Notes under the pieces: model-generated
Databases searched by the model: none
Told to the model about the DNA's origin: nothing
What the model saw: the letters and a program-made list of their open reading frames with translations, nothing else
Position numbers and translations under genes: made by a program
Assembly: GCA_002780065.1 (NCBI GenBank)
Contig: PEWQ01000122.1
Span: 1 to 6,413 of the forward strand
Reading direction: 5' to 3'
Source of the DNA: Candidatus Hydrogenedentes bacterium CG07_land_8_20_14_0_80_42_17
Lineage (GTDB): Bacteria > UBA8481
Length of the DNA: 6,413 nucleotides
Part shown: positions 2,771 through 6,413 of the stretch, in pieces
How positions within the stretch are numbered: position 1 is the stretch's first letter
How the letters are laid out: every line of letters starts with the position of its first letter

Positions 2771-2800
2771 TTGTAATTAAACAAAAATTAACGTTATGAT
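2771..2800 (+). promoter_or_regulatory. Candidate sigma70-type promoter of the fapA-like operon, possibly leaderless
   Basis: TTGTAA at 2771-2776 (4 of 6) and TATGAT at 2795-2800 (5 of 6) are separated by 18 bases. The -10 box ends exactly six bases before the ATG at 2807, so transcription would begin at the A of the start codon. No Shine-Dalgarno sequence precedes that ATG. The same six-base spacing is seen at the hydrolase gene, which makes both calls more credible. No operator-like palindrome is evident here. Confidence 0.45.
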
Positions 2801-2806
2801 TAGATC

Positions 2807-4177
2807 ATGGTAGCGAACACCGAGAGTGCGGCTGTTAAAATCAGTTCGGATCGAATGTCTGCCGAACTGATTATTTATAACATTTCTCCATTGCCTTCTA
2901 TATTGGAATTGCGTTCTTTGCTTGCATCCCGCGGAGTCATTTTCGGAATAAAAGACGAATTGCTTGAGAATGCTTTAAAGGCACATGGCACATGGTTTAA
3001 AGTGGCGGAAGGGCTTCCTGCTGCTGCTCCTGTTCACGGACATGTTCAGAATCATTTCGATGTATCCAGCCAACCTAGAATCGCCGTAAGCGAGAGCGGA
3101 CAAGCCAACATGAAAGAACTCGGTCTTCTCGAAAATGTCACGGTAGGATTTATTCTAGCCACTCTAATTCCGCCAAAGTATGGAATTCAAGGTCGAAATG
3201 TCTGCGGCGAGATTTTATATCCTGAAGAGCCTCGAACAGCAACTCTTCTATCGGGAAAAAATGTAACTGTCAGCACTGACGGAACCGAGCTCATTTCTGA
3301 TATTGACGGCAGAGTAGTTCTTGATCGCGACGGACGGATTTCCGTCGAAAACATTTACGTGGTAAATGGAGACGTCGGGCCGGCAACCGGCAACGTAAAC
3401 TTTCTCGGCACCGTTGTAATCAGCGGAAAAGTCTGTTCTGATTACAGAGTAAAAGCCGCGCAAAAAATTCTCGTTTCAGGTTCAGTGGAAGGCGCAATTA
3501 TCGAAGCCGGTCAGGAAATCACGGTGAAAGGCGGAGTAGCCGGAGGCGGCCATGCTCTTCTGCAATCTCCCGGAGATATCCATCTCAAATTTGCTCAAGA
3601 CTCCAAAATATTCTGCGGCGGTTCGCTCTTCGTAGATCACGATCTTATCCGCGTAACTGTAGTCGCGGCACAGTCAATTCAAGTCAAAGGCGCTATTATC
3701 GGTGGAGTTGTGACTGCTCCGACAATAACCGCAGGTCGCATCGGTTCCGAAACCGAAGTTCATACCATTGTCGAATTCGGAATCTCATCTCGATGCAAAC
3801 TGATATGTTCAAACCTTGAGCAAGAATTTATTACAGCAAGAGATAACCTAATTAAATTGCGAAAAAAGCTACAGCCTTTAGTAGCTCACTACAATGCCAG
3901 AAAGATCATGACTGTTGAAGAAAAGTCTACAATGGAATCGCTCGAGAATGCGGTTTCCGAGCTCGAAACTAAAGTGCTTTCTTTATCCGCATCAGTCAGA
4001 GACGCAATATCGAATCCGAGTGCTGACGTTCGAGGTGAAGTTAGAGTTGCAGGCGCAACTTATCCTGGAGTAATACTCTCAACAAATCGACAAGTGCGGG
4101 CAGTGACTCATGAGGTAAAAAATCTTGCGGCAACTGCATCTGAAGGCAAGATGTCAGGTGGAGGAAGCGAATCATGA
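2807..4177 (+). CDS. FapA (DUF342) family protein with C-terminal coiled coil
   Basis: The 456-residue product matches the FapA/DUF342 family (PF03961). It has an N-terminal segment from about residue 11 (VKISSDRMSAELIIY), the P-x-x-G-x-x-G-x-x-V-x-G region IPPKYGIQGRNVCGEILYP at 121-139, and then a long run of short beta-strand repeats with Gly turns from about 185 to 325: NGDVGPATGNVNFLGTVVI, VSGSVEGAIIEAG, VKGGVAGGG, VKGAIIGG and RIGSETEV. These fit a right-handed beta-helix. Residues about 335-400 are charged and helical, probably a coiled coil, followed by the family's closing strand (ATYPGVILS at 417-425). There is no signal peptide or membrane helix, so it should be cytoplasmic. Family members have been linked to flagellar assembly or placement, but many lie outside flagellar loci and are uncharacterised, and no flagellar gene is seen here. 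The start at 2807 is chosen because it precedes the conserved N-terminal strand and sits six bases after a -10 box; Met17 (2855) would cut into the domain. The stop overlaps the next start codon. Confidence 0.8.
   Translation: MVANTESAAVKISSDRMSAELIIYNISPLPSILELRSLLASRGVIFGIKDELLENALKAHGTWFKVAEGLPAAAPVHGHVQNHFDVSSQPRIAVSESGQANMKELGLLENVTVGFILATLIPPKYGIQGRNVCGEILYPEEPRTATLLSGKNVTVSTDGTELISDIDGRVVLDRDGRISVENIYVVNGDVGPATGNVNFLGTVVISGKVCSDYRVKAAQKILVSGSVEGAIIEAGQEITVKGGVAGGGHALLQSPGDIHLKFAQDSKIFCGGSLFVDHDLIRVTVVAAQSIQVKGAIIGGVVTAPTITAGRIGSETEVHTIVEFGISSRCKLICSNLEQEFITARDNLIKLRKKLQPLVAHYNARKIMTVEEKSTMESLENAVSELETKVLSLSASVRDAISNPSADVRGEVRVAGATYPGVILSTNRQVRAVTHEVKNLAATASEGKMSGGGSES
4160..4164 (+). 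promoter_or_regulatory. Shine-Dalgarno site for the overlapping downstream gene
   Basis: GGAGG lies nine bases before the ATG at 4174, inside the last codons of the FapA-like gene. It is a strong ribosome site, in contrast to the two upstream genes, which have none. This fixes the start of the 362-residue protein and supports translation by re-initiation or coupling at the ATGA overlap. Confidence 0.75.
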
Positions 4178-5262
4178 GCGAAAAGGAAATTGTCCTCAAC
4201 CTTGGGAAATTCGCGCTCGAAGTGCGCAAGGAAATTAAAGGACTTTCTAATAAAGTGGTCTGGTGGCTGTATGGCAGGGATTACGATTACGTTCAAGGCG
4301 GAGATGAAGGAGAAGAACTAGAGTATGAAGTGAAAAGAGTTCCGAAGGCCAGACAAGATTGGGAGAGTTATGTTCTTCTGTATGGCGCAGGAGCAATGCA
4401 GGGGCACATGTCGGGCAAAGCCGAAAGAAAGGTCGGAGGAGGCTATACAGGGAGATTAGACGATGACAAGAGTATTCAGTTCATCCACCAATTGTTTGCC
4501 GATAATTGTTCGAGTTTAAAGATTCAGTGTGGTCTCGGTTATCCTGCGCTTTCCGAACGAGTCAAGCTAATGGTTGAAGAGCCACAACGTACTGCTGCAA
4601 TTCTATTTTTTCAGGAATATCTAAGAAGTGTCTATCGTGCCATTGCAGGCGCTAACGCAGAGATACTTATCGAGCATCTTGAAACACTGCCCGGCAAGAC
4701 AGAACCGAAAGAACTCCTGGAGCGTTGGAAAGAGATCGAGTTAAAGTTGAAACGCGAAAAAAGGCCTGCTGTCTATGATGTCAAAGACGGAAAATTTTTC
4801 GTATATGAAAAAGTCGGAAAGAAGAAGAGATTGATCAATGGTTGGCTGTTTGGAATAAAGGACGAAGGTGCGCTTGAAGACGAGACAGATGCTAAAGAAG
4901 ATGAATCAAATTATGTATTCAAAATCGAGAATGCTCCGTTTCATACCCGAATGAATGCGCTCTTGACTGAGGCTTATAGACTGTTAGAGGATGAGAAGGG
5001 CGAGCTTGTAGCGCTGGCGGCAGAACATCAAAACGGAACATTAAACAAAATACTTTCAATGGTTCAAAAATTCTCGGAGCTTGCGGAATCCAACATGCTG
5101 GAAGAGAGCCAAAAACCTGGTGCCAGAATTATTGCAGACAAAATGGAGAAGATAGCTTCTTTAGTCTCAAAAAACTCTATGATAGTTTTGCGTATAGGAA
5201 TCGACGTCGAGCAGGTCAGAAACTGCAGTATTCAACTGCAAAAGTTGAAGAGAAAATTGTAA
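4174..5262 (+). CDS. Unrecognised 362-residue soluble protein coupled to the FapA-like protein
   Basis: I do not recognise this protein. It is highly charged and shows no signal peptide or membrane segment, so it is probably cytoplasmic. Visible parts: an N-terminal amphipathic helix (about 8-32); an Asp/Glu-rich stretch (43-52) followed by a basic one (54-60); a Gly-rich segment (GAGAMQGHMSG at 71-81, VGGGYTG at 87-93); a mixed helical region (98-195) with KEIELKLKREKRP; a compact beta-like stretch (VYDVKDGKFFVYEKVGKKKR at 200-219, then LINGWLFG); an acidic linker (229-244); and a long helical C-terminus (255-360) with a possible coiled coil. The ATG overlaps the FapA-like stop codon in ATGA and has a good ribosome site, so the two are one operon and are probably made in linked amounts. 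A partner or adaptor role for the FapA-like beta-helix is inference only. The frame is clean, with no sign of decay. Confidence 0.8.
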   Translation: MSEKEIVLNLGKFALEVRKEIKGLSNKVVWWLYGRDYDYVQGGDEGEELEYEVKRVPKARQDWESYVLLYGAGAMQGHMSGKAERKVGGGYTGRLDDDKSIQFIHQLFADNCSSLKIQCGLGYPALSERVKLMVEEPQRTAAILFFQEYLRSVYRAIAGANAEILIEHLETLPGKTEPKELLERWKEIELKLKREKRPAVYDVKDGKFFVYEKVGKKKRLINGWLFGIKDEGALEDETDAKEDESNYVFKIENAPFHTRMNALLTEAYRLLEDEKGELVALAAEHQNGTLNKILSMVQKFSELAESNMLEESQKPGARIIADKMEKIASLVSKNSMIVLRIGIDVEQVRNCSIQLQKLKRKL

Positions 5263-5341: not shown

Positions 5342-5466
5342 TAATTTTTTATTTAAATTTGCTGGAGTTTCCCTAAAGCTTTTGATTTATTCTTTGTTGT
5401 AACCGTTCGGTTAAACCCATCTTGTAATGGGCTCATCACGCCTCAGAATGTGGGCGAAGGTTCAAT

Positions 5467-5691
5467 ATGAATGTTGAGATGTTGAAGAGCGAAAGAAGCA
5501 TTGGACGGGAATAATCAAATGGTATGAAGAGAGCAGGATGTCCCTGAGAGCATTCTGTATTGCGGAAAATATTCCGAAGTCTGCTCTGCGGCATCAGCTC
5601 AAAAAATCGAAAATCTTCGAGCATGCTGAAAACAATTCGAGCAGAACAATTTCTCCATTCATTGAACTCGGAACTTCAATGCAGAATTCAT
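5467..5691 (+). pseudogene. tnpA: IS66 tnpA remnant (helix-turn-helix protein)
   Basis: The frame read through 5481-5691 gives VEERKKHWTGIIKWYEES, then RMSLRAFCIAENIPKSALRH and QLKKSK, the usual W-x(5)-WyesG-lSlraFC-x-x-x-x-i-x-x-s-x-l-x-x-w-l-k-k layout of the IS66 OrfA helix-turn-helix domain, which in intact elements binds DNA. FIELGTSM near the end resembles the F-x-E-L stretch in the C-terminal half. The frame has a stop at 5475 and no start codon before 5538. The upstream ATG at 5467 opens in another frame (MNVEMLKSERSIGRE then stop), which suggests a frameshift. The end is fused to tnpB sequence by deletion. Confidence 0.6.
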
Positions 5692-5847
5692 CAGGATCCC
5701 TTCTCTGGACAGCTCTTCATCTTTTGAAACAAAAACTCGACGTAAATCAAAATCCTGTATTGGAATCGTAACGGATTTGCGATCTGGTACAAGCGCCTTG
5801 AGAAAGGCCGATTCCAGTTTCCATCCACTCTACTCGATGAAAGATAA
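5692..5847 (+). pseudogene. tnpB: IS66 tnpB remnant (Orf2-type protein)
   Basis: Reading from 5692 gives QDPFSGQLFIF, stop, NKNST, stop, [20 protein letters not shown], then GRFQFP, ending at a stop at 5845-5847. DPFSG-x-LFVF and [22 protein letters not shown] are hallmark segments of the IS66 TnpB protein (PF05717). In-frame stops at 5725-5727 and 5743-5745 show decay, and the N-terminal half is missing. The identification is strong because several hallmark blocks fall in one frame in the right order. Confidence 0.8.
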
Positions 5848-5992
5848 ATATTATAGATACCACATTAAGAGATGCTTATCAGAGCCTGAAAGGAACGCGG
5901 TTGACGTTATCGGAATTAACCCAACTTCAACACTTTCGAAGCCGAAATGAGGTTGGTAGCCAAATAGAGGCTGAGTAGACAAAAAGTCGCCA

Positions 5993-6136
5993 CTACATTT
6001 TCAATCTCGGATTGTGAATCCACTGAGGTGCTGCGAGTCGCTTGGGCACGGTGAGTCCGAAGCGTTGCAGAAGATCTCGAAGTTCCGGACCAGGTGTGCT
6101 GACGCATGACAAACGAATCTCTCTGCCGCGATTAAT
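5993..6136 (-). pseudogene. C-terminal scrap of a transposase, possibly IS1634-like
   Basis: Read from 6136 down, one reverse frame gives INRGREIRLSCVSTPGPELR, then DLLQRFGLTVPKRL and a short tail before a stop at 5995-5993. The pattern of a charged strand, S/T-T-P-x-x-x-L-x-x-L-L-x-x-x-G-L-x-x-P and a basic end resembles the C-terminus of DDE transposases such as those of the IS1634 family. The frame has no start codon, and the rest of the protein should lie beyond 6136 but is not recognisable there. The piece is more GC-rich than its surroundings, which fits a foreign origin. The family assignment is from memory and weak. Confidence 0.35.
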
Positions 6137-6139
6137 GGA

Positions 6140-6299
6140 TTGTGTACAATATTTTCTGCAAAAAGAAAGAGAGCCATGATATTTCTATTAACAACTTTTT
6201 AAGAATGTGTGCAACTTAAGAGTCACTATCTTAATGTGAGTTTAGTGAAGGAATCAAATGGCTTTTTTTAAACGAATTTGCAGAAAATTATTGACACAA
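6140..6299. repeat. Imperfect inverted repeat around the start of the partial gene
   Basis: The reverse complement of 6140-6177 reads ATGGCT, a gap, TTGCAGAAAA, TATTG, TACACAA. The stretch 6258-6299 reads ATGGCT, a gap, TTGCAGAAAA, TTATTG, ACACAA. Three blocks match in the same order with small indels, about 80 bases apart (6178-6257). The right arm is the first 14 codons of the partial gene. This could be a large stem-loop, a duplicated and inverted gene start, or a chance match in AT-rich DNA. Confidence 0.4.
6248..6252 (+). promoter_or_regulatory. Shine-Dalgarno site of the partial gene
   Basis: AAGGA, within GAAGGAA, lies five bases before the ATG at 6258. It decides the start of a reading frame that is otherwise too short to judge. 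No good -35/-10 pair was found upstream. Confidence 0.5.
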
Positions 6300-6413
6300 C
6301 TAGGAAACGGATTTTCGGCAATTTGTTCAAGTCTATGGTGGACATTTATTGGTCTAGAAACTTTGTGGAAAAAGAGCCAATACAAAAGCAAGGCGATGCA
6401 AATCACAATCAGA
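6258..6413 (+). CDS. 5' part of an unrecognised gene, cut by the window edge
   Basis: The frame from the ATG at 6258 stays open for 52 codons to the last base. The product begins MAFFKRICRKLLTQ, a basic amphipathic start, followed by a hydrophobic stretch at about 20-33 (SAICSSLWWTFIGL) and then a basic segment (KKSQYKSKA). This could be a membrane anchor or a weak signal anchor. The Shine-Dalgarno sequence five bases upstream supports the start. The first codons form one arm of the inverted repeat described at 6140-6299. I cannot assign a family from this fragment. Confidence 0.45.
   Translation, partial: MAFFKRICRKLLTQLGNGFSAICSSLWWTFIGLETLWKKSQYKSKAMQITIR

Follow-up and report, generated by a model that had tools for sequence, protein, structure and literature searches.

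A FapA-family gene and an overlapping gene of no known family are kept as a pair in two Hydrogenedentota genomes

Locus organization

The window (i.e. the whole stretch of DNA analysed, 6,413 bases, which is the entire contig PEWQ01000122.1 of Candidatus Hydrogenedentes bacterium CG07_land_8_20_14_0_80_42_17, hereafter the host) carries on its forward strand a gene for a glucoamylase-like protein (PF10091; 235-2577; N-terminal F5/8 type C (discoidin) domain and C-terminal GH2-like sugar-binding domain), followed by ORF1 (2807..4177), which encodes a FapA-family protein of 456 aa, and by ORF2 (4174..5262), which encodes a predicted soluble orphan protein of 362 aa. The glucoamylase gene is flanked by an AT-rich inverted repeat (1-104 and 2528-2631; 74% across its 104 nt and 86% across the inner 37 nt), and a similar AT-rich repeat was observed in another of the compared loci (L041, near 4900-5172). 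Between the glucoamylase and FapA genes lies a GC-rich patch with internal palindromes (2641-2740) in AT-rich surroundings. The stretch downstream of the pair (5436-6413) holds no credible gene; short frames overlap there on either strand, an inverted repeat is present (6140-6162 / 6277-6299), and the stretch may represent the remains of a mobile element. No Rfam families were detected in the window.

The stop codon of ORF1 and the start codon of ORF2 overlap by ATGA, and a Shine-Dalgarno-like GGAGGA (4160..4165, forward strand) lies inside the 3' end of ORF1, its GGAGG 9 nt upstream of the ORF2 ATG (junction GGTGGAGGAAGCGAATCATGAGC); both the overlap and the strong ribosome site described by the first-pass annotation are thus present. 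Upstream of ORF1, a -10-like hexamer TATGAT (2795..2800, forward strand) is situated 6 nt before the ATG and is preceded by a -35-like TTGTAA (2771-2776), and the same TATGAT is found 9 nt before the aligned FapA ATG (L049, near 1520-1560) of Candidatus Hydrogenedentota bacterium J006 (same order, another family; hereafter J006). As promoter-like sites in the region occur overall at chance level, this candidate leaderless promoter is only suggestive of a leaderless transcript beginning at ORF1. The position of the J006 hexamer also suggests that the FapA start in that genome lies 26 residues after the first in-frame ATG.

A FapA-family protein outside the flagellar locus

The first gene had been predicted, from its letters, to encode a FapA-like beta-helix protein with a coiled coil, and the Pfam matches agree with this prediction: residues 9-173 of ORF1 match FapA_N (PF20250; 109.7 bits vs a cut-off of 27, E 1.3e-31) and residues 182-448 the FapA beta-solenoid (PF03961; 164 bits vs a cut-off of 31, E 7.1e-48), the latter match spanning profile positions 1-271 of 272 and containing a helical or coiled-coil insert. 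Judged by these domains, ORF1 is a full FapA-family protein (FapA itself being an already known family), predicted to fold with a FapA_N head on a beta-solenoid bearing a helical hairpin. It resembles flagellar FapA (DUF342; Vibrio vulnificus, and bb0267 of Borrelia burgdorferi) in having both domains at full length, in the same order and with the helical insert, but differs from it in lying outside a flagellar locus, in belonging to a separate subfamily and in being coupled to a partner that none of the other compared FapA loci contains. General beta-solenoid character is also common to ORF1, the bactofilins and the C-terminal domain of MinC; a bactofilin identity was rejected (PF04519, 11 bits vs a cut-off of 27.9), and Pfam gave no MinC_C match.

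FapA-family genes are numerous in both genomes (six in the host, eight in J006). The flagellar copy of the host (L038:5464-7155) adjoins FlhF-like, FlhG-like and FliA-like sigma factor genes, an arrangement around FapA that has been described previously (PMC11607428), and the equivalent locus of J006 has in common with it the FlhF-like gene, small genes between and after, and FapA. Within this operon a small protein (129-136 aa, hydrophobic in its N-terminal half) is kept between FlhG and the sigma factor (L038 3208-3597, L043 3189-3599) and may, by position, be FlgV-like. The expansion of the family in host and J006 (L038-L048) further includes Jag_N-FapA fusions and copies situated beside histidine kinases, Hfq and a bifunctional nuclease.

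When 35 FapA domains were placed in a tree, which does not resolve the deep branching order among the groups, the window copy and its J006 ortholog formed a clade of their own (support 100/100) with a long stem, separate from the flagellar, Jag_N-FapA and kinase-linked pairs and from one further ortholog pair. By this placement the window FapA is an old subfamily distinct from flagellar FapA: it neither clusters with the flagellar copy nor lies beside FlhF, FlhG or sigma-28 genes. The first-pass annotation had remarked on the lack of flagellar neighbours, which holds true for the window, although the neighbourhood ends with its 6,413-base contig. The 13.2 kb contig that carries the pair in J006 likewise shows no clear flagellar gene; one large surface-type protein encoded on it matches the Ig-like domain of FlgD, the hook-capping protein, but only below threshold.

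When 39 FapA-family copies from many phyla were tabulated, an open frame was found to start close downstream in 34 of them, some of these short frames not being credible genes. For several copies the downstream gene belongs to signalling or motility (histidine kinase, response regulators, CheB, FliW, MotA/ExbB family, Hpt, CBS), and for others it encodes Hfq, a bifunctional nuclease or an FtsA/PilM-like protein; no relative of ORF2 was found beside any other copy in the table. The window pair is thus similar to the kinase-linked, CheB-linked and Jag_N-FapA paralogs, in which another module comes close after the FapA copy or is fused to it, and dissimilar in that its partner belongs to no known family, the modules there being kinases, response regulators and further domains already known. 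In Vibrio vulnificus, FapA is reported to be bound by EIIA(Glc) under glucose control and thereby kept away from the flagellated pole (PMC7914778). Given this precedent and the variety of downstream genes, the data fit a view, drawn by analogy, of FapA as a docking platform that may be coupled to different modules by lineage.

The same observations allow a rather unlikely reading in which the pair is a motility accessory, i.e. a second FapA that acts on the flagellum or pole with a lineage-specific helper and has moved away from the flagellar locus. The host does possess FlhF, FlhG, a FliA-like sigma factor and FapA (with the equivalent locus in J006), the FapA that has been characterised is a protein of the flagellar pole (PMC7914778), and MotA-like, FliW and CheB genes adjoin other FapA copies; on the other hand, a separate FapA already occupies the host flagellar operon, the window copy is of another subfamily, and the surroundings of the pair are free of clear flagellar genes in both genomes.

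A partner protein of no known family

The annotation from sequence had been unable to place the 362-residue protein in any family, and the searches bore this out: ORF2 had no match in NCBIfam or PADLOC, nothing above the cut-off in Pfam, a chance-level match only in PHROGs (E 0.3) and, against the PDB, no match as a single sequence and chance-level matches only as a two-row profile. CATIP_N was rejected as a relative (17.5 bits vs a Pfam cut-off of 27; absent from the J006 ortholog). As regards a role in defence, which may still apply, neither ORF1 nor ORF2 had a match in the PADLOC library of 2023. ORF2 has a pI of 6.3 and a C-terminal part (about residues 256-361) rich in helix. Its AlphaFold2 models, built from two sequences, were of low quality, with a mean pLDDT of 54.8 with the window protein first and of 48.1 with the ortholog first; values of about 87 were reached only within portions of the C-terminal region. 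Comparison of the first model with the PDB returned mainly unrelated helical proteins aligned on residues 274-362 (best Z 7.6), and we consider these matches to the modelled C-terminal helices to be generic and uninformative.

The N-terminal two thirds are better conserved between the window protein and its J006 ortholog; polar residues R60, D62, E64, H78, D98, H105 and R151 are invariant in both, and the protein carries the motifs GAGAxQGHM and FIHQ. This conservation would suit an enzyme of an unclassified family, with ORF1 serving only as its platform or activator, a reading that we hold to be improbable, as no fold, family or catalytic motif was recognised and invariance across two sequences says little.

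The distribution of ORF2 is narrow. A profile of the protein turned up no convincing relative among 384 other genomes and none among 176 genomes from five further phyla (some of them already among the 384); phage and plasmid records had no tblastn match, and viral contigs likewise contained none. A scan of ~85,000 species genomes with two strict peptide patterns, which distant relatives would escape, recovered only J006. The weak G217 and G108 profile matches (53 and 83 residues) were set aside as chance, since one of the proteins concerned has 398 aa and lacks a FapA neighbour and the other is a methyl-accepting chemotaxis protein. A single-gene comparison (YebC) aimed at finding the nearest phylum did not point clearly to any. 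Within the genomes searched, the ORF2 family looks lineage-restricted, with relatives in unsampled lineages being possible; it is single-copy in the host, and the pair is carried by two genomes only. Wide occurrence of ORF2 without a FapA neighbour, or a match to a known unrelated family, had been named as counting against the pair; where found, ORF2 stood only beside the window FapA subfamily, and the profile and family searches placed it in no known family.

Conservation of the pair in J006

A comparison of gene neighbourhoods had been proposed as the means of recognising a conserved pair, and it revealed the same two genes on contig RFFU01000016.1 of J006 (identity along the proteins 45% for FapA and 41% for ORF2); their order is unchanged, and they overlap by 4 bases (GTGA) with an AGGAGG before the GTG. 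Conservation at this level speaks against either frame being a chance one. The coupling of the two genes, originally read from the window, has therefore gained support from a second genome in which overlap and ribosome site are kept. The flanks, on the other hand, differ: upstream lies a glucoamylase-like gene in the window and an AAA-ATPase-like gene in J006, where a Yip1-domain gene is found downstream of the pair. At the other FapA loci, the neighbours shared by host and J006 are mainly those of flagellar and FapA-linked operons, and the neighbours not associated with FapA are mostly not common to both genomes. Since the flanking genes have been replaced at 41-45% identity while the pair and its overlap were kept, the pair is probably under selection to stay together, and the two proteins probably work together. 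That ORF1 and ORF2 are merely co-transcribed and act independently, the pair being kept by short evolutionary distance, is an explanation to which we attach little weight: overlapping genes are common in bacteria and the pair occurs only in two related genomes, but complete replacement of the flanks argues against it.

Proposed function

Overlap and co-conservation show joint expression and not binding. With this in mind we favour, tentatively and at a confidence somewhat short of even, the reading that a non-flagellar FapA paralog and its dedicated partner are encoded by one two-gene operon and constitute one cytoplasmic complex of a scaffold with its client or adaptor. As products of such an operon, ORF1 and ORF2 would be made together and most likely enter one cytoplasmic complex, in which ORF1 would be the docking scaffold and ORF2, soluble and for the most part helical, would bind to it as a client or adaptor. 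ORF2 might then pass a signal to, or place, some cellular machine, much as happens with flagellar FapA once EIIA(Glc) has bound it and kept it from the pole. Physical binding and the roles of scaffold and adaptor are inferred from these considerations, and a cytoplasmic location is likewise inferred for both proteins, as hydropathy showed nothing in either that looks like a transmembrane segment.

Within the phylum sample (two genomes, the host and J006), a bolder version of the scaffold-and-adaptor reading may be put forward as speculation, at about the same low likelihood as the motility accessory: a duplicated FapA would have given up its flagellar duties and would now, together with a new protein family, organise another process as a phylum-specific complex, for instance polar placement, the export of a surface polymer or signalling. 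The original suggestion of an undescribed two-protein system remains plausible on the sequence evidence. It is upheld with respect to the conserved pair and the partner without a family, and it is qualified by the fact that FapA is a known family of which the window gene is one of six host copies.

The usual view takes FapA for a single flagellar protein. In this phylum, however, genomes carry six to eight genes of the family; these fall into several old subfamilies, most of them tied to a different module, which suggests a general role for FapA as a docking scaffold. Among the FapA copies compared here, the one in the window offers the clearest example of a dedicated partner that belongs to no known family, and on this pair the idea of a general scaffold would become testable through the binding of two proteins.
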